In this document: piece by piece, positions 1,555 to 35,332 of the stretch
How positions within the stretch are numbered: position 1 is the stretch's first letter
How the letters are laid out: every line of letters begins with the position of its first letter
From: a virus
Virus record (IMG/VR): IMGVR_UViG_3300028569_000073
Coordinates: 1 to 40,103 of that record
Direction: 5' to 3' (one strand)
Length of the DNA: 40,103 nt
Program-made: the position numbers and the translations under genes
Notes under the pieces: model-generated
What the model was told of the DNA's origin: nothing
The model's input: only the letters and a program-made list of their open reading frames with translations
Databases searched by the model: none

Positions 1555-2091
1555 TTATAGAGCACAAGCTCCGCTTTCACAACCGGATTCTTGTACTACT
1601 GGTTTTACTTCAACAGTTTTTGTTTCCATAGCTGTTTGCTTATCACCGTCATCTGTATTGGCATAATATAGATTCTTCAATCCATACTTGTATGCCAACA
1701 AAATATCTTTAATAACAACCTCTACAGGCACTTTATTCTTCTCATAACGGGAAGGAATATAGTAAGTGTTGGTGCTGATACTCATATCTGTGAACTTCTG
1801 AATAGCAGCAGCTACCTTTAAATATCCTTCATTACTTGGCATATCAAAAGCAAAGGTATAATTATCCTTGTACTTATCAATATTTGGAACTACCACAGGC
1901 AAAATGTTACTCTTGCTTCCTTTGAAACTAATAGCACTACGAGGTGGTTCAATGCCATTAGTGCTACTTTGAATTACACTGGAATTATGTGACACCAATC
2001 CACATTCAATGGGATAATGATGACAATCAGGTACTTCCAAATCATAAGTAGGTATTAATGATTCATTATTTGTTATTTTTTTTACTTTCAT
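1555..2091 (-). CDS. nrdA: NrdA C-terminal fragment preceded by a split-intein C-half
   Basis: Residues 1-36 are the C-terminal piece of an intein: block F (TYDLEVPDCHHYPI) and block G (GLVSHN), followed by Ser as the +1 extein residue at 1983-1981. Residues 37-178 are the C-terminal part of the ribonucleotide reductase large subunit (NGIEPPR, then a region matching the E. coli NrdA barrel end). They finish with CESGACAL, the redox-active C-terminal cysteine pair that re-reduces the active site. The protein has no function alone. Trans-splicing with the fragment at 3215-4210 would restore NrdA. The ATG lies 26 bases inside the end of the upstream HNH endonuclease gene, so translation is probably coupled to it. 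Confidence 0.93.
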   Translation of the reverse strand: MKVKKITNNESLIPTYDLEVPDCHHYPIECGLVSHNSSVIQSSTNGIEPPRSAISFKGSKSNILPVVVPNIDKYKDNYTFAFDMPSNEGYLKVAAAIQKFTDMSISTNTYYIPSRYEKNKVPVEVVIKDILLAYKYGLKNLYYANTDDGDKQTAMETKTVEVKPVVQESGCESGACAL

Positions 2092-3163
2092 ATGTTGTTA
2101 TTAAATTTTTGTAGTTTTCCAACAATTTCTCTTTTGAAATTGAACATTTTTCTTTCTTTTTTGAATTTTCAATTGACGGAATAATTTCTAAATTACAGAT
2201 AGATCCAATAATTTTTGCAGGAATATCATCCACATAACCTTTTTTTATTGAATATTTATGATCCAAACTAAATTTTGTAGATCGTTTATCAATATCACTC
2301 AATTCATATTCTTGTATAGATAAATTTGTATATACCCATACTAATTTTTTATATTTTATAAAATCATCTAATAAATCGTTTTTTATCCAACGTCCACAAT
2401 CTTCCATATTTTTTCTAATTTTGTTTATAGAACTAAACCATTTTTCTTCCCACGAATTTGGATAGTGATTTTTTAAAAATAACTTATTTCTATTATGCAA
2501 TCCTTTTTTCTTATTTATTTTTAATATCACCGCATTAATTTCATCATTTGAATATCCTTTATTAATCCAATATTGTTTATTTACACCGGCTGAATTTTTC
2601 TGTATTTCAGATATTATCTTTTTTGATTCATCCAATGTTTTTCCTTTTTTCATCCAATGTGATACTGTTAGTCTATTACTTTCTTCAGTATATTTTTTCT
2701 TTTCAAATTGCCATCTATCACCATATAATTTTTTAAATCTTTCATCTGAATTTGTATATGATGAAGTTTTTTTAAATTTATCAAATTTTTCTCTGCCAAC
2801 AACATCACCATGTCTTTTTATAAAAGATTCCAATGAAGTAGATTTTGATTTTTTTAAATTTTCAATATATTGTATTGACTCTTCATCCGTTAAATTAAAT
2901 TTATATTTATAATATGATGGTTCATAGATTACCGGTTTTCCCGTAAGCAATTTAACATGTGATATGAAAATTGGTATTCTTTTTTTATCAAATGTTTTTT
3001 TGGTTTGACCAGATGAAAATCTCTTCAATTCTCGTTTTGAAATTTTATTTTCAATACAAAATTTACATGTTTCTAATATTTCATTGTCATCCAAAAAATC
3101 TAAATTCATTTCTTTCTTAAATAATTTAAGATTATCATTGTTAGTTACTTCAGTTAATTTCAT
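2066..3163 (-). CDS. Free-standing HNH homing endonuclease between split nrdA intein halves
   Basis: A 365-aa basic protein. Residues 296-341 carry an HNH-type core: SLDHKYSIKKGY, then IIGSICNLEIIP and IENSKKK, with His/Asp, Asn and a late Asn at the expected spacing. Residues 167-218 carry two copies of a module reading roughly (H/Y)W(M/I)xKGxSxxE..xxI. The same module occurs in the Vsr-like endonuclease of the helicase cassette and probably recognises DNA. A CxxC pair lies near residue 33. The gene presumably cuts intein-free nrdA alleles to spread the cassette; that role is inferred from position. A 14-bp hairpin abuts the start codon, and the 3' end overlaps the following nrdA fragment by 26 bases. 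Confidence 0.85.
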   Translation of the reverse strand: MKLTEVTNNDNLKLFKKEMNLDFLDDNEILETCKFCIENKISKRELKRFSSGQTKKTFDKKRIPIFISHVKLLTGKPVIYEPSYYKYKFNLTDEESIQYIENLKKSKSTSLESFIKRHGDVVGREKFDKFKKTSSYTNSDERFKKLYGDRWQFEKKKYTEESNRLTVSHWMKKGKTLDESKKIISEIQKNSAGVNKQYWINKGYSNDEINAVILKINKKKGLHNRNKLFLKNHYPNSWEEKWFSSINKIRKNMEDCGRWIKNDLLDDFIKYKKLVWVYTNLSIQEYELSDIDKRSTKFSLDHKYSIKKGYVDDIPAKIIGSICNLEIIPSIENSKKKEKCSISKEKLLENYKNLITTYESKKNNK

Positions 3164-3209
3164 ATATGCCTGTTGGATTTAGATATAAATATAACCCAAC
3201 AGGCATATA
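3163..3209 (-). promoter_or_regulatory. Hairpin directly before the HNH endonuclease start
   Basis: A perfect 14-bp inverted repeat (3163-3176 with 3196-3209; arm core ATGCCTGTTGG) encloses a 19-base loop. Its 3' arm on the minus strand runs into the ATG, so folding would hide the initiation region. The loop contains ATATTTAT (3185-3192). A transcript started from a promoter there would lack the 5' arm and leave the start open. The layout resembles the I-TevI control hairpin of T4; the role here is inferred. Confidence 0.6.
3185..3192 (-). promoter_or_regulatory. ATATTTAT box in the hairpin loop of the HNH gene
   Basis: The coding strand reads TTATATTTATATC across the loop, 22 bases before the ATG at 3163. 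If it is a promoter element, transcription would begin within or near the 3' arm of the hairpin. Confidence 0.4.
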
Positions 3210-3214
3210 ATACA

Positions 3215-4210
3215 TTATATTTCAACTATATCATCATTTTCTTCTAATTCATATGCATGTTTCCATACATCGCCATTTTCAGTCTTAACCAAAAATTTAT
3301 GATTGGCGGTACATTTTATAACAATGCCATTTTCCATTTCTATATTAAATGTTGATTTTTTTCCATTATAATATATCTTATCGACTTGTTTTATCCCTTC
3401 TAAAGTTTTAACAGATATTGGATATTTCAATGAATACCATCCAATATAATTGTTATCTTCAATAGATTTCCAGTCAATTTCACCACTTTCACATATTTCA
3501 TGGAATGTTTTCTTTCCATCAATTGTTACTACTGATGTATCCCATGATAGACAACTTTCCACAGGCATACATGCAGTAAGTGTACTGTGTCTCATACCAT
3601 ACTTCTTGATTTCTTCTCTTAGAGCTTCCCAATCCATATGTAGAGGTTCAGTGATGAATTCATCAATGTCTCTCTTATAAGTATCAATTGGAAGAATTCC
3701 TTGACTAAATTTAGTACGATCAAACTTTTCACATTTACCAACTTCTTTTGCCATTTCAACACTAGCCTTGATTAGATAGTAACTGGTCTTTTCCATCCAC
3801 TGAGCTACGAAGTTTGGAGCTTTGGCATCCCAATACTTCAATCCTTCTTTAGCCAATAGAGCTGCCAAGTTACTTACACCTACACCTAGACTACGACGTT
3901 TAGTAGCAAAGTTTTTTGCGCCTGGTACGAAATATTCTTGATGATCAATCAAAGCATCCAACATTCTTACAATGATATCACAAACGTTTTCCATTTCATT
4001 GTCATCTTTAATTTCTAACCAATTCAATGCTGCCAATACACAGACTCCAATTTCTCCTTTTTGATCATTAACATCATAAATAGGAATTAATGGATGATGC
4101 ACTTCAAGACAATTATGAACCAATATGTTATTAGCATAAAAATTATTATTATCTTTTACAGTAATATCATATACATCTGATTTTTCTTTTATTTTTTTAA
4201 TTTTTAACAT
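3215..4210 (-). CDS. nrdA: NrdA middle fragment flanked by two split-intein halves
   Basis: This polypeptide carries three parts. Residues 1-33 are the C-half of intein 1 (DVYDITVKDNNNFYANN, ending ILVHN). Residues 34-219 are the middle NrdA extein, from CLEVHHPLIP to ACMPVES. Residues 220-331 are the N-half of intein 2, starting CLSWDT. The extein begins with the catalytic cysteine (E. coli Cys439, in NLCLE) and its Glu441 equivalent, so the first residue after splicing is the one that carries the thiyl radical. It needs two separate trans-splicing reactions, with 5019-6635 and 1555-2091, to form a 761-aa NrdA, the same length as the E. coli protein. The ATG lies 14 bases inside the end of the GIY-YIG gene. 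Confidence 0.94.
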   Translation of the reverse strand: MLKIKKIKEKSDVYDITVKDNNNFYANNILVHNCLEVHHPLIPIYDVNDQKGEIGVCVLAALNWLEIKDDNEMENVCDIIVRMLDALIDHQEYFVPGAKNFATKRRSLGVGVSNLAALLAKEGLKYWDAKAPNFVAQWMEKTSYYLIKASVEMAKEVGKCEKFDRTKFSQGILPIDTYKRDIDEFITEPLHMDWEALREEIKKYGMRHSTLTACMPVESCLSWDTSVVTIDGKKTFHEICESGEIDWKSIEDNNYIGWYSLKYPISVKTLEGIKQVDKIYYNGKKSTFNIEMENGIVIKCTANHKFLVKTENGDVWKHAYELEENDDIVEI

Positions 4211-4958
4211 ATTTCAAAAGTCCTTTTTTTAAATTTAATGTTGTTATTTTTCCGTCATTTGAATACAACATATAATTATTTTTTCCGTCATTGTACCAAT
4301 TTCTACCAATTATTGATTTAGATAAGTTTTCACACCTCGTTTTATCTCTTTTATCATATACAAAATCAGAATCATTAAAAGTTATATTTTTAATTTTTAA
4401 TTCATTTTTTAGTTGTTTTAAAAATCCAACTCTACCTTCTCCATCAAATCTAAATTTTGTATAATTGATAGGCATTTTTTTTGTTCTACAAAATTTAAAC
4501 CAATGATTGAATATCAATTTTTTATTAATATTAAAATATTTAACTGCTTCTTCAATTATCTGTTTATCTGTATATCCTGAATAATTTGGATTTTTATTTC
4601 CGATTGAAAGTTTTTTTCTTACATCAATAAATTTTTTATATTTTTCATCACTCAATGAATTTATTATATCACCACCATCTCCTCCTTCGGTTGAATTTAA
4701 TCCCGTTTTAAATGTATTATATTGTTTGATATAATTTTTTTCCAATTGTTTAACTTCAACTTCATCATTACATTCAATTAATATTTTAGATATTATATTT
4801 TTTGGACCGTGGTTTCTAATACATCTATAAAATTTTGTATCTATACCACTCAGTGCATTTATTATATGTTTGTGCAATCGTTCTTCTAAAGATTTGGATG
4901 TATATCCAATATAAGATTTGTCAAAAATTGTATGCATGTATATTATATATTTTTTCAT
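4197..4958 (-). CDS. Free-standing GIY-YIG homing endonuclease
   Basis: A 253-aa protein with an N-terminal GIY-YIG nuclease domain (residues 1-95). YIIYMHT is the GIY strand, SYIGYTS the YIG strand and LEERLHKH carries the catalytic Arg. GLNSTEGGDGG closes the domain. Behind it are a NUMOD3-like GNKNPNYSG element and a C-terminal IIGRNWYNDGKNNYML segment seen in other phage endonuclease tails, both probably DNA-binding. It sits between the halves of nrdA intein 1, so it presumably promotes homing of that cassette. Its start follows an 18-bp hairpin, and its last codons overlap the next nrdA fragment by 14 bases. No convincing Shine-Dalgarno site is visible. Confidence 0.9.
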   Translation of the reverse strand: MKKYIIYMHTIFDKSYIGYTSKSLEERLHKHIINALSGIDTKFYRCIRNHGPKNIISKILIECNDEVEVKQLEKNYIKQYNTFKTGLNSTEGGDGGDIINSLSDEKYKKFIDVRKKLSIGNKNPNYSGYTDKQIIEEAVKYFNINKKLIFNHWFKFCRTKKMPINYTKFRFDGEGRVGFLKQLKNELKIKNITFNDSDFVYDKRDKTRCENLSKSIIGRNWYNDGKNNYMLYSNDGKITTLNLKKGLLKYVKN

Positions 4959-4961
4959 ATG

Positions 4962-5013
4962 AATGAGTGGTTTACTTCATATAAGTATATATCAGTGAAG
5001 TAAACCACTCATT
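4962..5013 (-). promoter_or_regulatory. Long perfect hairpin before the GIY-YIG gene
   Basis: An 18-bp perfect inverted repeat (4962-4979 with 4996-5013; arm core GAGTGGTTTACTTCA) fills the gap between the NrdA-N stop and the GIY-YIG ATG at 4958. The loop holds ATACTTAT (4981-4988), a one-base variant of the box in the HNH hairpin loop, at nearly the same distance from the ATG (23 versus 22 bases). No T-run follows, so it is more likely a translation-control structure than a terminator. Confidence 0.6.
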
Positions 5014-5018
5014 TATTT

Positions 5019-6635
5019 TTATATAACATCTAAAATATCTAATTCATTTAAATCTTTTGCTTTTACATATCCTCTATTTTTAGTAAAAATTAAATGGTCT
5101 TCAGTACATTTTATTGTAAATCCAGATTCTTCATCTGTAATTTCTAACAATTCCATATCAACACCGGTTATATTTGAATTTAAAACTTCTTTATAAGAAA
5201 TTTCTTGATTGTCTATATTTTTTGATAATACACTTATATTTTTATTTTGTTTAAACAAGTCATTCAATTCTTTAATTGATAATTTCATAGGAATATTATC
5301 AATAATAGTAGAAACTAATGTATCAGGATGTAAACATAAATTGCTTGTATCTACTTGATCTAACCAACTACCGTGTTCATTTGCGTGATCAACAAACATT
5401 GTATAAATACGACCAGTTTCAAGACGTTCTTTAGCAAGTAGTCCCATCAATTCACGAGCAGGTACTTTCTTCTTGAACTTAATGTTCTTGTTAGCTTCAG
5501 CCTTTTCATACTTTTCCTTGAATCCTTCCAAACCAAAGGTATTCCAAAGACTTGGACATTCGTGATAGCTAAACAATGTTACATCTTGATTCTTCAAGAA
5601 ACGTTCAAAGATTAGTTTATCTAACCCCACACAATAATCTAGTTTACGAACACGATTATCATCAGTACCTTGATTGTTCTTCAATACAAGAATGTCTAGA
5701 ATATCATAATGGAACCAAGCGAAGTTTACAGTTGCACTACCACCACGAATACCATTTTGATGACAGCTCTTTACAGTAGATTCAAACGCTTTAGCAAATG
5801 GAATTGGACCAGTGTGTACTACTTCACCATTACGAATAGGAGCATTAGTAGCACGTAGTCTTGATAGATTCAATCCGATACCATAACGACTTGCAGTAGC
5901 AAAACCAACTGCACTGTTATTACTGAAAATACTACGTAGATCATCATCTACTGTGAATAGTGAACAGCTAGCATAACTCTTCATTGGAGTTCTTACCCCA
6001 GCCATAATTGGTGTGGGTAGGTTAATCTTATGTTTACTAAAGTAGTTGTAAGCTTTCTTTACGTACTCAATACGGTTTTCTTTATAGTCTTTAAAGAATG
6101 TCATTGCGATAAGCATATAAGCAAACTGTGGTGTTTCATAAATTACTTTGGTAACTCTGTTTTGTACCAAGTACTTATCACACAACTGTTTGATACCAGC
6201 ATACGTGAAATTAAAATCACGGTCATGCTTTAAATATTCATCTAGCTTATCAAACTCTTGTTTACTATACCAATCAAGAATAGATGAGTCATAGACCAAT
6301 GCATCAATATTAGTTTTAACTAGATCATATAGTTTAGGTGGATTCTTGCCTCCCCAAACATTTTTTCTCAATTGATAATTCAACAAACGAGATGCCACAA
6401 ATTGATAGTTTGGCTTCTCTTCTGTAATAAGATTTGCAGAAGATTCAATTAACATTGCGTGAATGTCCTTGGATGCCATTCCATCAAAAAATGACAAATG
6501 TGCATTCATTGCTACTTCTTCAAATCCGACACCTTTTATGTCTTCTGTAGCCCATTGTAAAATCTTATTGATTTTGTCTGCATTGAACTTTTCAGTATTA
6601 CCATTTCGTTTCTTTATAAAAATTTCTTTATTCAT
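5019..6635 (-). CDS. nrdA: NrdA N-terminal fragment with a split-intein N-half
   Basis: Residues 1-95 form the ATP-cone regulatory domain (FIKKRNGNTEKF start). Residues 96-433 are the NrdA barrel up to DTSNL. They include the first active-site cysteine (SYASCSLF), RYGIGLNLSRLRA and ESTVKSCHQNGIRGGSAT. Residues 434-538 are an intein N-half (CLHPDTLVST; block B CTEDHLIF) that ends at the stop codon. The protein is the 5' third of a gene encoding the large subunit of aerobic ribonucleotide reductase and must be trans-spliced to the 3215-4210 product. It starts about 100 bases after the helicase gene, behind a small terminator-like hairpin. No Shine-Dalgarno sequence is seen before the ATG. Confidence 0.96.
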   Translation of the reverse strand: MNKEIFIKKRNGNTEKFNADKINKILQWATEDIKGVGFEEVAMNAHLSFFDGMASKDIHAMLIESSANLITEEKPNYQFVASRLLNYQLRKNVWGGKNPPKLYDLVKTNIDALVYDSSILDWYSKQEFDKLDEYLKHDRDFNFTYAGIKQLCDKYLVQNRVTKVIYETPQFAYMLIAMTFFKDYKENRIEYVKKAYNYFSKHKINLPTPIMAGVRTPMKSYASCSLFTVDDDLRSIFSNNSAVGFATASRYGIGLNLSRLRATNAPIRNGEVVHTGPIPFAKAFESTVKSCHQNGIRGGSATVNFAWFHYDILDILVLKNNQGTDDNRVRKLDYCVGLDKLIFERFLKNQDVTLFSYHECPSLWNTFGLEGFKEKYEKAEANKNIKFKKKVPARELMGLLAKERLETGRIYTMFVDHANEHGSWLDQVDTSNLCLHPDTLVSTIIDNIPMKLSIKELNDLFKQNKNISVLSKNIDNQEISYKEVLNSNITGVDMELLEITDEESGFTIKCTEDHLIFTKNRGYVKAKDLNELDILDVI

Positions 6636-6736: not shown

Positions 6737-7909
6737 TTATTCTTCATCATCGTTGTTATGAACGTTCCACTTGGATTTTAGAGCCTTTTTGACTTGATTT
6801 TCACCATCCATCATTTCATTCAAGATACTCATACCCTCACGGCTATTTTCGCCATAAATTTCGATGTGACCACAACCAGCGTTCATTTTACTTGGGAATG
6901 TCAAACCATCTGGTCCGAAACGATTCTTAATTACGTGGAATCGTGCAGTATTCGCTTGTTTATCGTTAACTTTACGACTTAGACTCATAACGAAGTCAGC
7001 AGTCATAATCTTACGATAACTATCAGCGATGTTGTTAGCCTGAATAATATCTTCATCCATAGCAGCACGATTACTCTGTGAAGCACTCCAAATAGGAACT
7101 TGTAGTTCCCCAGCTACACCGCGTAGTTCTTCATAAATACCACCAGCTTCACTATAACTGTTACTGTTACGTTCACTCTGTGAGGGACGTAGAATATCAG
7201 CATAGTCAACAATAATCATATCAACTTTGGTGCCTAGTACTGCCAATCGTTCACAATGAGCCTTAAGACTATAAGCACTTACAGTTTTAATTGGAAAGTA
7301 CTTGATCTTCAACTTGCCAGGCACATCAGCAATCTTCTGCTTTACGATGTCTACGTTGTTACGAATGTTCTGGAAATCAATTCCAGTAAAACAAGCATCA
7401 TAACGAAGACCCACATAGTTTTCATTCAATTCTAGAGTGAAGTGAACTACGTTCTTACCTTGTTTCATAGCTTCAGCACCTAGCTTAGATAGTACCCATG
7501 AATTGTGAGATAAAACGCCATTACTATAATAACAGTGTACTTCATCAACTGATATATCATATAGAATTTCTTCATCACCTTCTTTTTTTGATATTAGTTT
7601 TGTAGTACCAAATTCAGTTTCTACTAATTCCCCTACATTTATATCATTTACATGTTTCCATTGACCATTTACTTTGAGTCTATGTTTTCCTGATGTTTTT
7701 AGTGTTTTATTGTTACCAAAATAAGATGTTACTGTTTTCTGTGATTCTGTTCTAAATGCCGTGACAATTTTTTTGTAACCATACGGCGTCTTTACTTTTA
7801 ATGGAAATTTAATTTCTTCAATTGAATTTTCAGTTTCACTCACGCCAAGTTTTTCAAAAAGGTCTTTAACCTTAATTGTTTTTTGAATTTTTCTAATTAC
7901 CATTTTCAT
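6737..7909 (-). CDS. gp41: gp41-type replicative helicase, C-terminal part with a long intein C-piece
   Basis: Residues 1-136 are the larger part of an atypically split intein: TIKVKDLFEKL, then block B (LKTSGKHRLKVNG), block F (LYDISVDEVHCYY) and block G (GVLSHN). Ser is the +1 residue at 7501-7499. Residues 137-390 are the DnaB/gp41 helicase motor. They start at SWVLSKLG, which continues the Walker A motif, and include Walker B (VDMIIVDYADILRP), the SASQSNRAAMDED segment and an acidic C-terminus. Joined with the N-part the helicase is 460 aa, close to T4 gp41. It unwinds DNA at the replication fork as a ring. The ATG overlaps the upstream endonuclease gene by 17 bases. Confidence 0.94.
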   Translation of the reverse strand: MKMVIRKIQKTIKVKDLFEKLGVSETENSIEEIKFPLKVKTPYGYKKIVTAFRTESQKTVTSYFGNNKTLKTSGKHRLKVNGQWKHVNDINVGELVETEFGTTKLISKKEGDEEILYDISVDEVHCYYSNGVLSHNSWVLSKLGAEAMKQGKNVVHFTLELNENYVGLRYDACFTGIDFQNIRNNVDIVKQKIADVPGKLKIKYFPIKTVSAYSLKAHCERLAVLGTKVDMIIVDYADILRPSQSERNSNSYSEAGGIYEELRGVAGELQVPIWSASQSNRAAMDEDIIQANNIADSYRKIMTADFVMSLSRKVNDKQANTARFHVIKNRFGPDGLTFPSKMNAGCGHIEIYGENSREGMSILNEMMDGENQVKKALKSKWNVHNNDDEE

Positions 7910-8878
7910 AATATTTTTTAATTAAACTAATACACTCACTTTTATTTTTTTTCCAATCGTATTCCCATATTATTAATACACTATAACCTATTGATTCTAA
8001 GAAATCAATTCTTTGTTTATCATATGTCCATATTTCTTCTGATGTTTTGTTTATACTAAACGCTTTAATTTTGTCATCAGATTTAAAATATCTCGGATTT
8101 GCGTGCCAAAAATCACCATAAAATTCAATAATCTTTTTATCATCAATAATATCAACAATATATTTGTTAATAGGAACATTAGCTTTAACATTTACGTTTA
8201 AGTTTTCTTTAATATAAAGAAAAACTTCTTTTTCTATTTTTGAATTTCCGTTAAATTCACCAAAATGTCTAGCCCACTTTCCTTTACCAACCAATTCAAT
8301 TTTTGCTTTTAATGAATTAGAAATTTTAATTTTACTTTCATCCGTTCTTATCTTTCCTTTGAATTTAGGAGATTTCAAAGATAATCTTGATTGTAATTCA
8401 GATATTTTCTTTATTGCATCATTTTCCGATAATCCTTTTTTTATTATCCAATATTCTTTTCTAAAATGAGAATATTCCGGTTTATATTTTTTTGTATTTT
8501 TACTTGCGTTTTGTGTTTGAATATCAGTCACTTTTTGTTTTGCATCAACTTCAGACATTCCTTTTGTCATCCAATATTGATATCTGTATATTGAAAATTC
8601 TTTCTTTTGTTTATTCATATATCATATATATGACTCACATGACATAAAAAACAAGTTATTTATGTAGTTTTACCACTTCCAATGGAAATGTTATTTTGTT
8701 TTAGATTTTCCAATTCAAAAAATATATTTTCTATTTGCCATCCATACAATTCTTTATCATCAAGTTTATATTTTTCAAACGGATTTATCCACAATGTGTA
8801 TTGATTGCCCGAATTTCCATTTATTTCAATTCCGAATTCATAATATTCAATTTCAATTTCCGTGTTTGGACCTACACA
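7502..8878 (-). mobile_element. Atypically split intein cassette in the helicase Walker A motif
   Basis: The N-piece is at 8878-8663 (starts CVGPNTEIEI). The C-piece is at 7909-7502 (136 aa, ends SHN). The Vsr-like endonuclease gene lies between them. Unlike the two nrdA inteins, block B is in the C-piece. The split therefore falls soon after block A, as in the AceL-TerL and VidaL class of atypical split inteins. Splicing joins ACAGSGK to SWVLSKLG, restoring the P-loop GSGKS. The nucleophiles are Cys1 and Ser+1. Confidence 0.88.
7893..8618 (-). CDS. Free-standing Vsr-like (EDxHD-type) homing endonuclease
   Basis: A 241-aa protein in three parts. Residues 10-80 hold two copies of a YWxxKGxSExDAxxxIxxxQ module (YQYWMTKGMSEVDA and EYWIIKKGLSENDA). 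Residues 90-110 are NUMOD3-like (TDESKIKISNSLKAK). Residues 125-235 form a Vsr/very-short-patch-repair-like nuclease domain with VDIIDDKKIIEFYGDFWHANP and, later, IWTYDKQRIDFLESIGYSV and IIWEYDW. This matches the endonuclease family first reported with split inteins in fractured phage genes. It lies between the helicase intein halves. The 3' end overlaps the helicase C-part by 17 bases. Only a weak 7-bp hairpin (8642-8665) lies upstream. Confidence 0.87.
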   Translation of the reverse strand: MNKQKKEFSIYRYQYWMTKGMSEVDAKQKVTDIQTQNASKNTKKYKPEYSHFRKEYWIIKKGLSENDAIKKISELQSRLSLKSPKFKGKIRTDESKIKISNSLKAKIELVGKGKWARHFGEFNGNSKIEKEVFLYIKENLNVNVKANVPINKYIVDIIDDKKIIEFYGDFWHANPRYFKSDDKIKAFSINKTSEEIWTYDKQRIDFLESIGYSVLIIWEYDWKKNKSECISLIKKYYENGN

Positions 8879-9557: not shown

Positions 9558-10502
9558 TTATTCTACGAAACTATTTAATTTACCGAAACATTCATTGAGC
9601 CAAATGTGATAATTGGGGATATTATTCCACATTTTGTCCTCTGTGATTAATTTAGAAAAGCTCATTTTATCAATTCTACGTACAGGAGATTTTATAATTT
9701 CTTCTATACGTAACTGGGTAAATGATTGCACTTGCGTATCTTTCAACTGCATCAAACTATAATTACGTTCAAGCAATAGCTTGTTGTCTAATACAGTCTG
9801 ATATACTTTATATTTACTCTTGTTATTCTCCGCGTAATTGTAAATCTCATTCAGATCATATTGGCGTTCTTCTGATAAGAAAGGAAATGATTTTACTACC
9901 CGTTTTAAACCTACACCATCTAAACCAGGTATATTATCACTTACATCACCTTCCATAACTCTATACAAGATATAGTTGCTGCATGTAACGCCATATTCAT
10001 CCAATATTTCTTTACAACCAAAAATTCTCTTTTTGACAGGACTCCAAATTTTGACTTTATCGTTTGCCAATTGTAAGAAGTCTTTATCAGTGGACATAAT
10101 TGTTACATTACTGTCCTTGAAAGTTTCTGTGGCTAAATAAGCAATTGTATCGTCCGCTTCTATTTGATCAATTGCCATTACAGTAACAGGCAATGTATCT
10201 AAATAATTTATAGTACGAATCAATTCTTTTTTAAAATTTACAGATTCTATCTCAGATGAAGATAGTTCTTCGTAATTACGATTGAGTCTAATATCTGTCT
10301 TTCTACCATTTTTGTACGCTGGATAAATCTTTCTGCGTTTCTGACTACCACCTTTACCATCAAATACAATAATAACTCGGGTAGGAGAAAGTAATTTAAT
10401 TGCATATCCAATACTCTTCAAGAAACCGGCAATACCACCTGTATGTAATCCATCCTCATTGAGAGAAGGAATGGCCATAAAACTTCTAATGTAAGTATTC
10501 AC
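9558..10502 (-). CDS. rnh: 5'-3' exonuclease / RNase H (FEN family), main part
   Basis: Most of a T4 Rnh-like flap endonuclease, which removes RNA primers and 5' flaps during lagging-strand synthesis. Visible metal-binding segments are VFDGKGGSQKRRKIYPAYK, IEADDTIAYLA, STDKDFLQLA and EGDVSDNIPGLDGVG (helix-hairpin-helix). The frame opens with GTG at 10502, followed by NTYIRSFMAIPSLN. The family normally has VDGxN(T)xIR, so the first strand and its catalytic Asp are missing here. They are encoded by the small frame just upstream (10502-10630), whose TAG stop overlaps this GTG as TAGTG. The enzyme may be made by stop/restart coupling as two chains, or the gene may carry a 5-base insertion. Confidence 0.85.
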   Translation of the reverse strand: MNTYIRSFMAIPSLNEDGLHTGGIAGFLKSIGYAIKLLSPTRVIIVFDGKGGSQKRRKIYPAYKNGRKTDIRLNRNYEELSSSEIESVNFKKELIRTINYLDTLPVTVMAIDQIEADDTIAYLATETFKDSNVTIMSTDKDFLQLANDKVKIWSPVKKRIFGCKEILDEYGVTCSNYILYRVMEGDVSDNIPGLDGVGLKRVVKSFPFLSEERQYDLNEIYNYAENNKSKYKVYQTVLDNKLLLERNYSLMQLKDTQVQSFTQLRIEEIIKSPVRRIDKMSFSKLITEDKMWNNIPNYHIWLNECFGKLNSFVE

Positions 10503-10630
10503 TACAATCCGTCAACCAAAAGGACATCACTATTAAGTGATTTTTTAAGTCCTCCGGTGACGGAATCTCTTTCTATGTTTTGAAATAAAGAAAATAATTT
10601 CTTCATTTCTTTGTTGTCAAAATTGCTCAT
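10502..10630 (-). CDS. rnh: N-terminal piece of the split FEN nuclease
   Basis: A 42-codon frame from ATG 10630 (starts MSNFDNKEMKKLF, ends LNSDVLLVDGL). The ending is the first beta strand and catalytic Asp (VDG) of the FEN family. Removing five bases (TAGTG, 10500-10504) would give an uninterrupted VDGLNTYIRSF. The stop TAG and the GTG of the next frame share one base, an arrangement typical of translational coupling. The 5' flank has an odd run of seven G on the plus strand and no Shine-Dalgarno site. Confidence 0.75.
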   Translation of the reverse strand: MSNFDNKEMKKLFSLFQNIERDSVTGGLKKSLNSDVLLVDGL

Positions 10631-10675
10631 TTAACGCGGGGGGGATTATATTATATAAATCTTAGTCGAATGAAA

Positions 10676-10715
10676 GTTTTCCACACAGTCATCTATATTA
10701 GACTGTGTGGAAAAC
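10676..10715 (-). terminator. Strong hairpin after uvsX
   Basis: A 15-bp perfect inverted repeat (10676-10690 with 10701-10715; core TTTTCCACACAGTC) encloses a 10-base loop, 10 bases past the uvsX stop. On the minus strand the stem ends GGAAAAC and is followed only by TTTCATT. Termination is therefore plausible but not textbook. It may instead stabilise the mRNA end. Confidence 0.55.
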
Positions 10716-28080: not shown

Positions 28081-28989
28081 TTAAGTACTTGCTTGATGTT
28101 TTGCAGCATCATACATCGATTTTTTTGAATCCACAACTTTTTTAGCATTTTTTAAAGAAATGTCTGCCGCTGCCTTTTCTTCTGGAGTTGTAGCCGCAGT
28201 ATATTTTTCATTTGCAACATCATATTTTTCTTCAGCGTCATCTAATTCAGCTTGTCTTTGCACAACTAATGCTAAATTTGCTTTATGTGTCGCTGATTTA
28301 ACTTTAGCTTCATCTTCTTTTAAGATACCCACAATCAACTTCTTTAATAACTTCTTTTGCTTTTCAGTTAATTTACCGCTGGTATTACCCAACTTGTTGT
28401 TTAATATATTATGTATCTTTGGGTTGTAACTTCCGAATAAATCCATAATAAATGCTTTTTGTTGTTCAGGATTTAGCGTCGAGTATTGTGATCTCAATTG
28501 ACTTGCACTTCTTGCAGGTGATCCTAATACTGTAAAATCTGTTGTTGGAACAGTAATTAAGTAACCGCGGTTAATTGCGGGTTCCAATTTACTTTCGTTT
28601 TTTGGCATTGGTTGCAAATATGAAGGAGATCCGTCTTTTTTAACAAAGCTCTTGAATCTTGGATCTTCAGCCATATCTTTTTGACTAACCGCAAAAATAA
28701 TACTATCACGTTCAATATTGATCGGTATCTGATTTGATACACTTTGCAAGTTGTAGTTGTTCTTTACATTTAGTATTTTGTTGGCTGGTATGCCAGTTGC
28801 CATCATCATTTCTTTTTTCTCGTCAAATGAAAAAGGTGACTTTGGCAATTCAATTACCCCCGTTGTGGTTACATATACATCATTGCCACCAAATTTGGTG
28901 CTTAAATAATTATATACACTTTTGTGCCCTGCGTGAAAAGGATGAAATCTACCAGGATAAATGACGAATGTTTTTTTATTAAGTTGCAT
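28081..28989 (-). CDS. HxGH nucleotidyltransferase (NMNAT/cytidylyltransferase-like) with coiled-coil tail
   Basis: Residues 7-25 read FVIYPGRFHPFHAGHKSVY, the nucleotide-binding GxFxPxHxGH motif of the adenylyl/cytidylyltransferase superfamily. GSPARSASQLRS (near 170) fits the second, ISxTxxR-like motif. These enzymes join a nucleotide to a phosphate group, as in NAD or coenzyme A synthesis; the substrate here cannot be told. Residues 215-302 are Lys/Glu/Ala-rich and likely coiled coil. The gene lies between the tail tube and tail chaperone genes, an odd place for a metabolic enzyme. The product may be carried in the virion or simply be co-expressed late. An ATATTTAT box precedes the ATG by seven bases. 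Confidence 0.82.
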   Translation of the reverse strand: MQLNKKTFVIYPGRFHPFHAGHKSVYNYLSTKFGGNDVYVTTTGVIELPKSPFSFDEKKEMMMATGIPANKILNVKNNYNLQSVSNQIPINIERDSIIFAVSQKDMAEDPRFKSFVKKDGSPSYLQPMPKNESKLEPAINRGYLITVPTTDFTVLGSPARSASQLRSQYSTLNPEQQKAFIMDLFGSYNPKIHNILNNKLGNTSGKLTEKQKKLLKKLIVGILKEDEAKVKSATHKANLALVVQRQAELDDAEEKYDVANEKYTAATTPEEKAAADISLKNAKKVVDSKKSMYDAAKHQAST

Positions 28990-28995
28990 ATGTTA

Positions 28996-29003
28996 ATAAA
29001 TAT
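28996..29003 (-). promoter_or_regulatory. ATATTTAT box before the nucleotidyltransferase
   Basis: An exact coding-strand copy ends seven bases before the ATG at 28989, in the 15-base gap after the endonuclease at 29005-30663. Confidence 0.35.
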
Positions 29004-29004
29004 G

Positions 29005-30663
29005 TTATTCTGTTTTTATCCACTCGTATTTCGTGTGACCACAATCCCATATACGATCATATCGATTATTTTTCATATTATCCCATTCACTTAGTGTAAC
29101 ATCATAACTTTTTAATTTCTTTGACAATGTATGTTTTGCAAAACCATATCTGTGCCATCTAATATCATTTCCCAATTCAAAATACCAATAATTTGGTTTG
29201 GTATCTTTTATTTTGGTAAATCCTAATACTTCATATAAGTTACCAACACTATATCTTTTATCAGCATAAGTTATTATTTTATGCGGATTATAGTTTTTAA
29301 TAAAAAATTTTAATAATTTGCCCGCTATACCTACTATTCTTTGATTTGTTGTGAATCTAATTAGTTCATATTGATTTTTATCTTTATTGATATAACCCAA
29401 TGATTTTCTTTTTTTACCAAATGTCATTACCGCAACTAATAAATTATTATGATATGCGCCTAGTTTAATAGATGACGGACAGTCTCCTTGTATATGATTT
29501 TCATTAAGAAACAATTTACAATCATCTATAACTTTAACCACACAATTTCTAGCATATATAGACTTTTCGTTTGATTTGCCTAGAATATGTTTTAATTTGG
29601 TTTTTACAATATTTTTATTGTATACCCATTCGTCTTCAAATATATGAATAAGTCTTATTCCTTTAGATTCACATATTTTTGTTTTATTCAAATGATAATC
29701 TTTATCTTTACCACCACTATTTTCACTGTGCCAATATAACCCGTCATATTCAATTGCTATTTTCTTTTCAGGAATATACACATCCAATTCTAATCCATTA
29801 AGTATACTTCTATCATTTTCAATCAAATCTATATCACCAATTAAACTTTTTACATAATTTACTATTTCTTTTTCATTGTGACTAAAACCAGCAATATACG
29901 GATAACATTTTAAACATCTGGGTAAATGTCCACCATCAATATGATCTTCAAATATATCATTACATTGTTTACATTTAAATTTATATAAATTGTTTTTATC
30001 TGTTGAAATATAATCTTCTTGTGTAAACAATGGAATCGCAACAGTTGATAATTTATGATTTAAAATATTGTCAAAAAATCTTTTTTTAGATTCACTTTTT
30101 GCTAAATCTTTAAAATATTCCGTTTTTGATATATTATCCACTCCATATTTTTCTATACAAGTTGATTTTGCTTTTTCAGCATTAACATATGTTGCACTTC
30201 CATAACGATTTAACTTTGTATTTTTAATTTTATCTACACGGTTAATATCTTTAGAAACATATATACCACTACATTTAGCACCACAACATTTTTGGTTTCT
30301 ATAAATTAGAGATTCAAAGTTTATACTACACACTAAACATTTTTTAGTTTCATAATATAAATGTCTATTTTGTTTATTTTTTTCAATCAGTGTATTTGTT
30401 CTTACACTTACAGTAGATACATTACTACATTTCTTACTACAATATTCACTATAACCAACTATAAATGATTTAAATTTAGTTGAATTATTACAAACTTTAC
30501 ACTTTTTTTCGCCATTTATACTTTTATATAACTTTTCACCAAATGTTTTCCCAGAATACTCCGAATTAATTTTTATATAAAAGTCTTTGTGTTTAGACTT
30601 TATTATTTGAACATAACTATCGGGATTTGATTCTATTATTTTTAGCAGATCTTCTTTTTTCAT
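29005..30663 (-). CDS. Large zinc-finger homing endonuclease downstream of the tail tube gene
   Basis: A 552-aa protein. Three zinc-like Cys clusters (CKVC/CSKKC, CLVC/CCGAKC, CKQC/CLKC) are spread over residues 55-255, with YGVDNxxK-type repeats (RYGSATYVN, KYGVDNISK) between them. The nuclease domain (265-350) has ELDVYIPEKKIAIEYDGLYW with HSE and RLIHIFEDEW, a Vsr-like EDxHD pattern. The last 200 residues resemble a GNAT-like module (NHIQGDCPSSIKLGAY, VLGFTKIKDTKPNYWYF) seen in related phage endonucleases. A GTG two codons upstream is possible, but ATG 30663 is preferred. It is paralogous to the plus-strand gene at 31387-32892. Confidence 0.85.
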   Translation of the reverse strand: MKKEDLLKIIESNPDSYVQIIKSKHKDFYIKINSEYSGKTFGEKLYKSINGEKKCKVCNNSTKFKSFIVGYSEYCSKKCSNVSTVSVRTNTLIEKNKQNRHLYYETKKCLVCSINFESLIYRNQKCCGAKCSGIYVSKDINRVDKIKNTKLNRYGSATYVNAEKAKSTCIEKYGVDNISKTEYFKDLAKSESKKRFFDNILNHKLSTVAIPLFTQEDYISTDKNNLYKFKCKQCNDIFEDHIDGGHLPRCLKCYPYIAGFSHNEKEIVNYVKSLIGDIDLIENDRSILNGLELDVYIPEKKIAIEYDGLYWHSENSGGKDKDYHLNKTKICESKGIRLIHIFEDEWVYNKNIVKTKLKHILGKSNEKSIYARNCVVKVIDDCKLFLNENHIQGDCPSSIKLGAYHNNLLVAVMTFGKKRKSLGYINKDKNQYELIRFTTNQRIVGIAGKLLKFFIKNYNPHKIITYADKRYSVGNLYEVLGFTKIKDTKPNYWYFELGNDIRWHRYGFAKHTLSKKLKSYDVTLSEWDNMKNNRYDRIWDCGHTKYEWIKTE

Positions 30664-30679
30664 ACTCACACTCTCATAT

Positions 30680-30687
30680 ATAAGTAT
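30680..30687 (-). promoter_or_regulatory. ATACTTAT variant box before the endonuclease
   Basis: The coding strand has ATACTTAT 17 bases before ATG 30663. CATACT overlapping this box can pair with AGTATG that includes the start codon (6 bp), giving a small start-hiding hairpin. The same C variant occurs in the loop of the GIY-YIG hairpin. Confidence 0.35.
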
Positions 30688-30708
30688 GAACCATTTTAAA
30701 TTAAAATC

Positions 30709-30742
30709 AATAAAAATCCTTCTAATTTTAGTTAGAAGGATT
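30709..30742 (-). terminator. Rho-independent terminator after the tail tube gene
   Basis: On the minus strand an 11-bp perfect stem (AATCCTTCTAA/TTAGAAGGATT) with a six-base loop is followed by TTTTATTG. It lies 50 bases past the tail tube stop and separates that highly expressed gene from the endonuclease downstream. Confidence 0.82.
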
Positions 30743-30791
30743 ATGAAAATAAAAGTTGATTTATAAAATCTAAAACGACCAGATTGTAATA

Positions 30792-31283
30792 TTAATACTG
30801 AAGAATTGCATAATCGTATGCAATTGATAGGCTGATCATTTGAGCAGCACCATCATCGCTCCAATCCATTTCTTGGAAATCGGCGCTTACGATGAATGAA
30901 CCCACCAACTTCCATTCTTCTACTTTGTCACCAACTGGACCAAGAACGTTGATGGTCAAATCTTTCTTGTAAAAGTCTTGATAACCATCACGGCCGGTAA
31001 CAGATTCGTGATGCAATCGAACCCATTCCATTACAGCTTGCGCACCAGATGGTACAATTGGATCATAAAGTTCCATACTGATTTCATCCCATACACTCTT
31101 ACCTTTGTAGTAAGATTTTGTATTGATATGATCAAGTTCTTTCTTAGCTTGTGTTAGCTTAGGACGATTGACCTTTTTAATAATGAATGATGGAATGCCA
31201 TCAACATAAAGAATAAAACGATTCTTTACTTTTGGTTCAAACGCGGTAGCGAATATTTCACTTGGATTTAGTAGTTCTGCCAT
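30792..31283 (-). CDS. gp19: Tail tube protein (T4 gp19-like)
   Basis: A 163-aa protein, the same length as T4 gp19. It starts MAELLNPSEIFATAFEPKVKNRF and contains FILYVDGIPSFIIKKVNRPKL, VWDEISMELYDPIVPSGAQAV, a KKDLTINVLGPVGDKVEEWKL strand pair and the closing FQEMDWSDDGAAQMISLSIAYD. These are hallmarks of the gp19-type tube subunit, which stacks as hexamer rings to form the inner channel of the contractile tail. It has its own terminator downstream and an ATATTTAT box 23 bases upstream, so it is probably a separate, strongly expressed unit. Homing endonucleases flank it on both sides. Confidence 0.93.
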   Translation of the reverse strand: MAELLNPSEIFATAFEPKVKNRFILYVDGIPSFIIKKVNRPKLTQAKKELDHINTKSYYKGKSVWDEISMELYDPIVPSGAQAVMEWVRLHHESVTGRDGYQDFYKKDLTINVLGPVGDKVEEWKLVGSFIVSADFQEMDWSDDGAAQMISLSIAYDYAILQY

Positions 31284-31305
31284 AAATTAAATACCTTTCT
31301 TTATA

Positions 31306-31313
31306 ATAAATAT
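31306..31313 (-). promoter_or_regulatory. ATATTTAT box before the tail tube gene
   Basis: The coding strand reads TAATATTTATTATAAAGAAAGG, with the box 23 bases before the ATG at 31283. A weak GAAAGG purine stretch follows it. Of all copies, this one has the spacing best suited to a promoter -10 element. Confidence 0.42.
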
Positions 31314-31386
31314 TAAAATTTTTATTTTATTTGATTTATTTGAAATATATATTAATATATATCTATGTATGAGCCAAAGGTAAATT

Positions 31387-32892
31387 ATGAGCAGACCTAA
31401 AAATAATCCTGATTTTGTTGAAAAGGTATGTGAAACTTGCAGTATAAAGTATAAAATTTCATTTTACAAGAGAAATACATCAACGTATTGCAGTAAACAA
31501 TGTTCAAATGCAAACGTAAAAGTTTTAAATAAGATGCGTGAATCACAAAAAAAAACGTATTTTCAAAAATATAATGGGATGCATCCAATGCAAACTGACG
31601 GAACAAAGAAAAATTTTAAAAATGCTATCTTGGATAAATATGGAGTTGAATCTTATAGTAAGTTAGATGTATATAAACAGCGTGTTAAAAACACTAAATT
31701 TAAAAAATACGGAGATGAAAATTATAACAACATTGAAAAAATAAAATCTACCTGTCTTACGAAATATGGTGTCGATAATGTTTTAAAAGACGTTACTATA
31801 AGGAAAAATATCGCGGATAAATCTAAAATAGAACGTTTTGGTTTTATTAAAAATTATTGCGAGGTTAGAAATATATCTCCTTTATTTTCTGAATCTGAGT
31901 ATGACGGTTATTTATATAAAAATAAATATAAATTTTTGTGCACAAAGTGTAACAAGGTATTTGAAACAGACGTTTATAAATTAAACCATATATTTTGTAG
32001 TTATTGCAATCCACTAGATAAAGATACTCTTGAAAATGAAATATATCACTTCATTAAATCTATTTTAGGAGATAATGTTATTGTAAAGAGAAACGACAGA
32101 TCTGTACTTAACGGTAAAGAATTAGACATTTATATTCCATCAGAAAATATAGCGATTGAACTGAACGGATTATATTGGCACAGTGAAAACGGCAACAGTA
32201 TTAAAAAATATTATCATTTAAATAAAAGTCGCAGCTGCACTTCAAAGGGGATACGTCTAATACATATATTTGAAAATGAATGGATTCATAAAAAAGAAAT
32301 TGTTAAATCTGTGATTTGTTATTTATTCAAAACTAACATTAACAAAATTTATGCGCGTGAATGTGATATAAGATTAGTCTGTGAAACTGAAAAAAACACA
32401 TTTTTGGAACTTAACCACTTGCAAGGAAAAGATAAATCTTCTCTAAAATACGGATTGTATTATAAGAATGAATTAGTATCTCTAATGACATTTGTTAAAT
32501 CTAGATTTGATAAAAAAATACAATATGAAATGTATCGTTATTGTAATAAACTAAACACATGTGTTATAGGATCTGCATCAAAACTATTTAAAAGGTTTAT
32601 TAATGATCACGATCCTAAAAGTATAATATCTTATAATGATAAAAGATATTTTGACGGTATAGTGTATCAGAATCTGGGTTTTAATTTTATTGAAAATACC
32701 ACCCCTAATTATTGGTACATTAGTTCAGATTATAAAACATTATTTAATCGAATGACATTTCAAAAACATAAATTAAACAAGATATTAAATAATTTTGATC
32801 AAAATTTAACAGAGTGGAAAAATATGCAATTAAATGGTTATGATCGTATTTGGGACTGTGGAAACGGAAAATGGGTATGGAATTCCGTATAA
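31387..32892 (+). CDS. Homing endonuclease on the opposite strand, paralogue of 29005-30663
   Basis: This is the only plus-strand gene. The 501-aa product has an N-terminal Cys cluster (CETCSIKY, CSKQC), YGVxSxxK-type repeats (DKYGVESYSK, TKYGVDNVLK) and a second cluster (CTKC, CSYC). The Vsr-like nuclease domain reads ELDIYIPSENIAIELNGLYW then HSEN and RLIHIFENEW, and a GNAT-like C-terminal module follows. It is closely similar in layout to the endonuclease at 29005 and shares the ending YDRIWDCG. The active-site IEYDG of the paralogue is IELNG here, so one acidic residue is changed. AAAGG lies seven bases before the ATG. It converges with the HAD gene with three bases between stops. Confidence 0.86.
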   Translation: MSRPKNNPDFVEKVCETCSIKYKISFYKRNTSTYCSKQCSNANVKVLNKMRESQKKTYFQKYNGMHPMQTDGTKKNFKNAILDKYGVESYSKLDVYKQRVKNTKFKKYGDENYNNIEKIKSTCLTKYGVDNVLKDVTIRKNIADKSKIERFGFIKNYCEVRNISPLFSESEYDGYLYKNKYKFLCTKCNKVFETDVYKLNHIFCSYCNPLDKDTLENEIYHFIKSILGDNVIVKRNDRSVLNGKELDIYIPSENIAIELNGLYWHSENGNSIKKYYHLNKSRSCTSKGIRLIHIFENEWIHKKEIVKSVICYLFKTNINKIYARECDIRLVCETEKNTFLELNHLQGKDKSSLKYGLYYKNELVSLMTFVKSRFDKKIQYEMYRYCNKLNTCVIGSASKLFKRFINDHDPKSIISYNDKRYFDGIVYQNLGFNFIENTTPNYWYISSDYKTLFNRMTFQKHKLNKILNNFDQNLTEWKNMQLNGYDRIWDCGNGKWVWNSV

Positions 32893-32895
32893 TTT

Positions 32896-34062
32896 TTAAA
32901 TATGACTCAAATTTTTATCCGTAATATTGTTTATTGCGTCTTTTAGCTGATTAACATACCCAGTGGATCTTAAAAGTTTGAATACCAAGTTCTCGGTGCT
33001 GTATTCTCCACTTTTAGACAATCCAGCTTGACGCATTTCATATAACCGCTTTACCAACCGCTTTAATTTATCCAAATTTTGTTCTTTTATAGCAGTATTA
33101 ATAAATGTTACATATTCTTTGTATTTCTTAGAAATAGCAGCTTTATCTATCTGTATATCTTCAACTTTTGGTTTTTTTACCCAAGCATTTTTCATCAAAC
33201 TATATACAGCTTGACTTCTATTGACTTCACTAATATCTTGAATATAAACTTCTACTGGATGATTACCAATTCTAATATCGTGTGATTCGTTCCATTTGCT
33301 CTTTAATCCATCTACATAATTCTTAACAAGTTCTTTACTGTCACCAATTTTAGAAAAATCTACAAGCAAATGTAAATCTATATCGCTGGTTGGAGTCCAA
33401 TTATACCCAGCGGTACTACCAAGAAAATAAACATCTTCAAGGGGTACATTCAAATCAGTATCTTTATAGAAAGTATTGGCAATGGTTAATAGTTTATTTA
33501 GCACTTCAGGCTTTATTGCATCTTCAGTTGCCCAAATTTCAGGATTTAAAATACTATTATAAATTCTATGTTTTTCTTTGATACCCAACATTTCTTTTAG
33601 TTGATTGATAGTATCTATAGCATTTTTATGCAATATTGCTTTACCACCAGCATTAATAAAATCATTTATATTATCTTCTCGGTCATCTATCAAGATACTA
33701 TCAACAGTTGCAAACTTCGCTTTTAAGTTTCTATGCGGTACCAAATTAGCTTCAATATCTATCTTATTATTAGCTAACCATTGTTTTTTACCAATATAAG
33801 ATAACTTGGTAGGCGCATGACTCAATATTTCTACAGGTAAATTTTTTATAAAATTATAAAGTAATTTGCCATCTTTCATCCAAGGCATTGTAGCATAATA
33901 TTCAGGACAATTTTTATCAACAAATTTAAATCTATTTTTTTTGCCATGCTCAACATCATAAGTTTCTACAGGCACTCCACCACTATAGCGCTTAAACTGT
34001 GATTCCCAATCACTTATCACTCCATCCATATCCAAATATATTTTATGTTTATTAGTAATCAT
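32896..34062 (-). CDS. HAD phosphatase fused to a pol-beta-type nucleotidyltransferase
   Basis: A 388-aa two-domain protein. Residues 7-155 are HAD-like, of the 5'(3')-nucleotidase type: IYLDMDGVISDWE (nucleophile Asp11, Asp13), a Ser/Lys region (ILSHAPTK) and ILIDDREDNINDFINAGG (metal-binding Asp pair). Residues 205-290 are nucleotidyltransferase-like: FLGSTAGYN followed by TSDIDLHLLVDF, the GS...DxD motif, with VEVYIQD as the third strand. The rest is helical. A phosphatase and a nucleotidyltransferase on one chain suggest end processing of a nucleic acid or modification of a small nucleotide; the substrate is unknown. It lies between the tail tube region and the tail-fibre genes. Confidence 0.8.
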   Translation of the reverse strand: MITNKHKIYLDMDGVISDWESQFKRYSGGVPVETYDVEHGKKNRFKFVDKNCPEYYATMPWMKDGKLLYNFIKNLPVEILSHAPTKLSYIGKKQWLANNKIDIEANLVPHRNLKAKFATVDSILIDDREDNINDFINAGGKAILHKNAIDTINQLKEMLGIKEKHRIYNSILNPEIWATEDAIKPEVLNKLLTIANTFYKDTDLNVPLEDVYFLGSTAGYNWTPTSDIDLHLLVDFSKIGDSKELVKNYVDGLKSKWNESHDIRIGNHPVEVYIQDISEVNRSQAVYSLMKNAWVKKPKVEDIQIDKAAISKKYKEYVTFINTAIKEQNLDKLKRLVKRLYEMRQAGLSKSGEYSTENLVFKLLRSTGYVNQLKDAINNITDKNLSHI

Positions 34063-34222
34063 TTATAATAAATAGTAGCATATCAATCGCTTAGCTTTAA
34101 TTTAACTATCAATAATTTAGTATTATTTAATTAATATTTAACAACTACTTAATTCAACAAGCGCTTACTTATGCTTATACTTTATATAAATTATAAAGTC
34201 AAGACTATTAATAATTTTAATT
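34063..34222. other. Intergenic AT-rich stretch without a gene
   Basis: This is the longest gene-free stretch (160 bases). It contains an ATAAATA (plus strand) next to the HAD gene start and a 7-bp inverted repeat CTTTATA/TATAAAG (34180-34198) just past the chaperone stop. Neither is a convincing terminator or promoter on its own. A promoter for the HAD-fusion gene probably lies here. Confidence 0.4.
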
Positions 34223-34669
34223 TTAATTTGGCTTAATAGGCCACGTAATATTATCCGGATTATTTGCGTTTTGAGGTATATCTCTTAAAGACTGTCTATA
34301 TTGTCTCCATGCAGTTTTTTGTTCATCCGAATAAGCTTCCCATCTATCAATTGTGACGTAACCATCAGATTCGTTTAAAAGATTATTGCGACACACTCTG
34401 ACTTTTATTAACTTATCTGATTTAATTTCCGCATCTGTTTTATCTAAAACTTCAACTGTATAAACTATATTATCTTTTAGTACTGGCACATCTAATAAAT
34501 TAAAGATTTGTGTTTCTGGATTATGTGGTATATAGTCAAGTACTTTATATAAATTGTGTGTCTGTAAAAATTCATCAGGTATTCCAACGTCAGGAAATGA
34601 AACGTTAGGAAACATCACAAATATACTTTGTATATAAATTGAATTGTTTATTATTTTTGCTACTTTCAT
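34223..34669 (-). CDS. Tail fibre assembly chaperone (Phage_tail_APC-like)
   Basis: A 148-aa protein. The C-terminal WRQYRQSLRDIPQNANN and ITWPIKPN form the typical ending of tail assembly chaperones found next to fibre genes, used to fold or attach the distal fibre. The N-terminal part (MKVAKIINN) is variable. An in-frame GTG seven codons upstream would overlap the preceding gene. ATG 34669 leaves a seven-base gap and is preferred. It follows the two fibre or adhesin genes, as chaperones usually do. Confidence 0.78.
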   Translation of the reverse strand: MKVAKIINNSIYIQSIFVMFPNVSFPDVGIPDEFLQTHNLYKVLDYIPHNPETQIFNLLDVPVLKDNIVYTVEVLDKTDAEIKSDKLIKVRVCRNNLLNESDGYVTIDRWEAYSDEQKTAWRQYRQSLRDIPQNANNPDNITWPIKPN

Positions 34670-34676
34670 AATTTTA

Positions 34677-35327: not shown

Positions 35328-35332
35328 AAATA

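Follow-up and report, generated by a model that had tools for sequence, protein, structure and literature searches.

The question raised by this locus is when two homing endonucleases that are encoded within nrdA, on its own strand, are made during infection, and what part is played by the hairpins that lie directly before their start codons. The locus belongs to IMG/VR record IMGVR_UViG_3300028569_000073. The window analysed here is the whole viral contig of 40,103 bases. The phage is a T4-like myovirus and a distant relative of cyanophages and Pelagibacter phages (NrdA about 54%); a 131-kb relative compared with HTVC008M gave 36% for gp18, 30% for gp23 and 29% for gp17. Its nrdA gene, on the minus strand, is interrupted at two places, each time by an endonuclease open reading frame (ORF) that lies between the two halves of a split intein. 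Site 1 holds a GIY-YIG homing endonuclease of 253 amino acids (aa) (4197..4958, minus strand; Pfam PF01541, E=2e-7; PHROG homing endonuclease), and site 2 holds an HNH-like homing endonuclease of 365 aa (2066..3163, minus strand). Our conclusion is that the hairpins are probably late-only timing switches for these endonucleases.

The GIY-YIG hairpin (4962..5013, minus strand) has a perfect stem of 18 base pairs (bp) and a loop of 16 nucleotides (nt). It lies between the stop codon of the NrdA N-terminal fragment and the endonuclease start, and the stem ends 3 nt before the ATG. The HNH hairpin (3163..3209, minus strand) has a perfect 14-bp stem and a 19-nt loop, and the last base of its 3' arm is the A of the HNH ATG. 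The 3' arms are thus 0-3 nt from the ATG at both genes, and the hairpins occupy nearly all of the 51- and 60-nt gaps from the stop of the intein half to the start of the endonuclease. An earlier note on this DNA had given the same arm lengths and coordinates, directly before the two starts, and these were exact. It had also placed a promoter word in each loop, and ATACTTAT (4981..4988, GIY-YIG) and ATATTTAT (3185..3192, HNH) are indeed there on the coding (minus) strand. These two words, both of the form TA[CT]TTAT and predicted to be promoters, were counted here as 22 nt (GIY-YIG) and 21 nt (HNH) before the ATG, where the note had 22-23 bases.

Three perfect inverted repeats with arms of at least 12 bp and loops of 5-30 nt are found in the window, and two of them are these hairpins. 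Sixty block-wise dinucleotide shuffles produced a mean of 0.33 repeats of at least 12 bp, and none of the 60 had a repeat of at least 14 bp. The RNA folding z-scores were -5.8 for the HNH hairpin and -9.3 for the GIY-YIG hairpin, with 0 of 200 shuffles equally stable. The arms of the two hairpins are unrelated to each other in sequence. The third repeat (10676-10715) is a perfect 15-bp repeat between uvsX and an rnh-like gene. It lies 60 nt from a start, its loop lacks the motif, and no clear T-run is seen.

The loop word has a distribution that fits a late-gene promoter. Among 8-mers upstream of ATG starts in the relatives, ATATTTAT ranks first: it was found in 148 of 576 distinct regions on the coding strand and in 3 regions on the opposite strand. 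TA[CT]TTAT was present upstream of gp19 (tail tube) in 28/28 regions, a tape-like gene in 8/8, an 869-aa gene in 20/21, a 388-aa gene in 24/24 and a 302-aa gene in 13/16, which gives 93/97 for these five late-type genes. It was absent upstream of nrdB (0/27), ssb (0/26), gp41 (0/3), uvsX (0/6) and rnh (0/3), or 0/65 in all. The nrdA gene, inside which the window endonucleases lie on the same strand, had the word in 4 of 32 upstream regions. In these four (L078, L080, L081 and one other locus), it stands 18-21 nt before the start. We read TA[CT]TTAT as probably a late promoter, and the putative late promoter word of the earlier note stands on this distribution. A phage group that is common in the viral contig collection would then have TATTTAT as its probable late promoter word.

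A role of the motif as a translation signal was considered and rejected. Its distance from the start codon varies from 4 to 41 nt (many genes have it at 4-8 nt, gp19 at 20-41 nt), and a Shine-Dalgarno-like word was found in 30 of 68 far-motif cases compared with 0 of 136 near-motif cases, a contrast that is partly forced by space. The late-type word also stands 4-8 nt before the start codons of several late genes (16376, 23891, 26974, 28989, 34062, minus strand), both in the window and in relatives. These window genes have no Shine-Dalgarno sequence, and this combination suggests leaderless late mRNAs. The word differs from the T4 late promoter, whose consensus TATAAATA is read by gp55. When HTVC008M was put through the same test, it gave TATAAATA; the word in the window phage is TATTTAT. 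A T4-style late promoter was therefore not borne out: the predicted switch works like that of T4, but its promoter is not the T4 promoter.

From these features we infer an RNA start in the loop, its late timing, blocking of ribosomes by the stem and activity of the endonucleases. Early and middle read-through RNA from nrdA would fold into the stem, and the start region of the endonuclease would be hidden. The essential nrdA fragments would be translated from this long RNA, and the endonuclease would not. The late phage transcription machinery would start RNA in the loop, a few bases past TA[CT]TTAT. Such an RNA would be without the 5' arm and would not fold, and the endonuclease would be translated from it.

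Relatives with the GIY-YIG cassette show how the hairpin has been conserved and lost. It occurs in three further distinct versions (L009, L010 = L012, and L011). Two pairs of the stem have changed in a compensated way, from G-C to A-U and from A-U to U-A, and TA[CT]TTATA is constant while other loop bases vary. When the partner was slid by one column in the alignment, pairing fell from 97% to at most 44%. In L077, both halves of the site-1 split intein are retained, all but about the last 25 codons of the endonuclease have been deleted, and the hairpin is missing (z -0.7). Since the hairpin was lost along with the endonuclease, the stem belongs to the endonuclease, and the split intein ORFs need no stem. 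The earlier proposal that the architecture has been kept is thus supported by a stem retained through compensatory changes and lost with its endonuclease.

The same anatomy recurs on other endonucleases, which agrees with the earlier statement that the arms share no sequence and extends it to unrelated genes and an unrelated phage. The endonuclease of the uvsX split intein (L034, L068, L179) belongs to another family and has its own stem, CCTCCTACTA/TAGTAGGAGG. This stem can form in two registers, each of which buries AGGAG(G), and the loop holds TATTTAT or ACTTAT. In the cultured Klebsiella jumbo phage KP13-7, relatives of the GIY-YIG (34% identity) and HNH-like (24%) genes lie in a fractured nrdA in the same order. 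At the KP13-7 GIY-YIG gene, the stem is unrelated, perfect and 14 bp long. Its loop contains AATAAATA, and the AUG is paired by an outer helix. In KP13-7, [TA]ATAAATA is found upstream of 7/34 structural-region genes and 4/155 genes elsewhere (p=0.0007). The nrdA of this phage (L209, record 28225-38860) is in several pieces, most of which are annotated as hypothetical.

To see how often a helix encloses the motif, 998 distinct upstream regions from 201 families were surveyed for motif-enclosing helices of at least 9 bp. These were found in 3 of about 8 endonuclease families and in 2 of about 46 others (p=0.02), with counts that depend on how the endonucleases are grouped. The two cases outside the endonucleases are an AT-repeat before a tape-like gene and a small membrane-type gene after nrdB. 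The latter encodes a 126-aa membrane/coiled-coil protein (L055:9412-9792, L072:9406-9780) and has a 14-bp hairpin with the late word in its loop and the start codon of the gene within its 3' arm. It may be a lysis-type gene that is kept back in the way of T4 gene e. The hairpins, their positions, the distribution of the promoter-like word, the covariation, the loss with the endonuclease and the recurrence are all seen in the sequence.

Several results count against a late-only switch at these genes. The covariation score of the GIY-YIG stem was reached by 58 of 500 shuffles, and support from four distinct sequences is thin. The GIY-YIG and HNH leaders have no clear Shine-Dalgarno sequence. Searches of the 131-kb relative by tblastn with gp55, gp33 and gp45 of HTVC008M gave no match, and neither did Sigma70_r2. 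Because the late sigma factor of the group was not found, the word "late" rests on which genes carry the motif. At the KP13-7 HNH gene, which overlaps the ORF before it, there is no hairpin. No hairpin was found at the endonuclease of the gp41 cassette either, where the motif lies 6-9 nt before the ATG in L210, L211 and L212 and is degenerate in the window. Two further window endonucleases (13761 and 30669) have the motif and no strong enclosing stem. The predicted switch is common but not universal.

The most serious rival explanation is that the hairpin is a bridge. It would bring the stop codon of the N-intein half beside the endonuclease start, and ribosomes that terminate at the stop and then re-initiate or jump would give a coupled, low level of translation, with no block. 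In every case, the stem takes up most of the 51-70 nt gap, so stop and start would be juxtaposed, and initiation at T4 genes 38 and 25 is helped by a hairpin that lies between the Shine-Dalgarno sequence and the AUG (PMC3014915). However, no Shine-Dalgarno sequence lies 5' of the window stems, that of the uvsX cassette sits within the 3' arm, and a bridge leaves the late-type promoter word in every loop unexplained. We consider bridging unlikely. Another possibility is a role of the inverted repeat at the DNA level: the endonuclease, or some other repressor, would bind it as an operator that covers the loop promoter, as at the I-TevI operator. T4 intron endonucleases do bind operators that overlap their own late promoters (PMC2988022), and matched changes in the arms would be retained in a palindrome too. 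We give this explanation little chance, since arms of 14-18 bp that are 13-19 nt apart are long for half-sites and are wholly different between endonucleases, yet always at the start codon. Also, in the stem of the gene after nrdB a G-C pair has become G-U, a change that RNA pairing tolerates and DNA symmetry does not.

It is very improbable that the stems work as terminators or attenuators to restrict how much transcription passes into the endonuclease. Neither window stem is followed by a T-run, and making NrdA requires transcription through the hairpin into the downstream nrdA fragments. This explanation gains from terminator-like stems that stand before uvsX in the same genomes, and possibly from L132, where the hairpin of an HNH gene after gp19 is ambiguous, with T6 behind a stem that may act as a terminator. 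A last rival is that the repeats arose by chance or are neutral, and that the loop word is no more than common AT-rich sequence; the genome is AT-rich, and TATTTAT is a simple word. This explanation is close to negligible, given that none of the 60 shuffles had a stem of at least 14 bp, that the word has a strand asymmetry of 148 to 3, and that the anatomy recurs in unrelated endonucleases and phages.

The predicted late-only switches are part of a larger arrangement. The first nrdA ORF (5019..6635, minus strand) encodes the N-extein and the N-intein half, which starts at C434LHPDT (Pfam RNR and Intein_splicing; exact empty sites in relatives). The second (3215..4210, minus strand) encodes the site-1 C-intein half, the middle extein and the site-2 N-intein half. 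The third (1555..2091, minus strand) encodes the site-2 C-intein half and the C-extein. Intein_splicing matches and intein termini were found at both sites, with the halves on separate ORFs. By these matches, the arrangement is a split-intein "fractured gene", and trans-splicing of the halves is predicted. The gp41 gene is interrupted likewise, around a Vsr/DUF559-like endonuclease (7893..8618, minus strand), which serves as a contrast case without a strong motif-in-loop hairpin. An exact cassette-free site 1 was seen in about 74 nrdA loci, and empty site-2 and gp41 sites were also seen in relatives. Among the nrdA loci fetched, the GIY-YIG cassette is present in five genomes. Since relatives with this cassette are without the gp41 cassette, and site 2 is empty where readable (L011, L012), the cassettes are separate mobile insertions.

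The basis for the HNH label is a DH...N C-terminus like that of HNH proteins, together with a resemblance to the KP13-7 HNH-like protein at the same nrdA site (24% identity, E=4e-14). The protein had no significant HNH model in Pfam and no match in PDB. No close relatives of it were found in IMG/VR, and no relatives of the GIY-YIG endonuclease were found in GTDB genomes. Split inteins without an endonuclease occur in L077 (nrdA) and L036 (gp41). In L034, L068 and L179, uvsX is fractured too, by an atypical split intein whose N-half is very short; the uvsX of L179 contains an additional intein half further upstream. A gene that resembles RNase H and 5'-3' exonucleases (10502-10640, minus strand) is broken directly after DVLLVDGL by the 5-nt TAGTG, a stop that overlaps a GTG start, in the window and in L009, L018, L034 and L044. 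At this point, L077 and L179 carry TAGTTA, which is 6 nt long and in frame, and the gene is intact in other relatives.

The reason for which T4-like phages keep their endonucleases silent until late has been studied mainly in introns, in which early translation of I-TevI harms splicing. The split-intein cassettes have no intron to protect, yet the late-only anatomy, built each time from different sequences, is found on one endonuclease of a cultured jumbo phage and, in one phage group, on three or more unrelated endonucleases. Because the anatomy recurs with no intron to protect, it suggests that making the endonuclease early carries a cost of its own or that homing is worthwhile only at a late stage. 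Late-only hairpin switches might even be a recurrent part of split-intein endonuclease cassettes across phage lineages, rebuilt around the late word of each host phage, though we put this forward tentatively and think it somewhat doubtful. If it is true, transfer to a phage with another late promoter requires the loop to be rebuilt. Natural contrasts are available in cassettes with and without the endonuclease, and in loops with TATTTAT and with AATAAATA.

This kind of switch is known for I-TevI, I-TevII, I-TevIII and segB of T4 and for mobE of phage Aeh1 (PMC2988022, PMC3014915). In the same test that was applied to the window, T4 I-TevII showed TATAAATA in the loop, 18 nt before the ATG, with the Shine-Dalgarno sequence in the stem, and T4 mobE and segG showed no such hairpin anatomy. 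T4 gene e, with TATAAATA in the loop 13 nt before the ATG, also has its Shine-Dalgarno sequence in the stem (PMC3014915), but it is a lysis gene and not mobile. I-TevI and I-TevII resemble the window genes in having a stable hairpin over the start and a late promoter placed so that late RNA is without the 5' arm (PMC2988022). They differ in their host element, which is a group I intron in T4 and a split intein here, and in the T4 word TATAAATA. The expression of the T4 genes was measured. The I-TevI precedent named in the earlier note is the same kind of switch, but I-TevII, with its motif exactly in the loop, and Aeh1 mobE are closer. In Aeh1, the two nrdA halves act as separate subunits and are not known to be joined through a split intein. 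Aeh1 mobE is an HNH endonuclease gene inside nrdA with a hairpin at the ribosome site and a late promoter (PMC2988022, PMC3014915). This comparison was made from a review. Fractured genes, as reportedly described by Dassa and colleagues in 2009 and cited in PMC3653736 and PMC7090010, consist of a split intein and a free-standing endonuclease gene placed between its halves. In the window, too, N-extein and N-intein come first, the endonuclease follows, and C-intein and C-extein come last. The literature searched gave no report that fractured-gene endonucleases have late-promoter hairpins. As far as that literature shows, three things are new: the occurrence of the predicted switch in split-intein cassettes, a late promoter word other than that of T4, and a switch rebuilt around two promoter words in relatives of one endonuclease.
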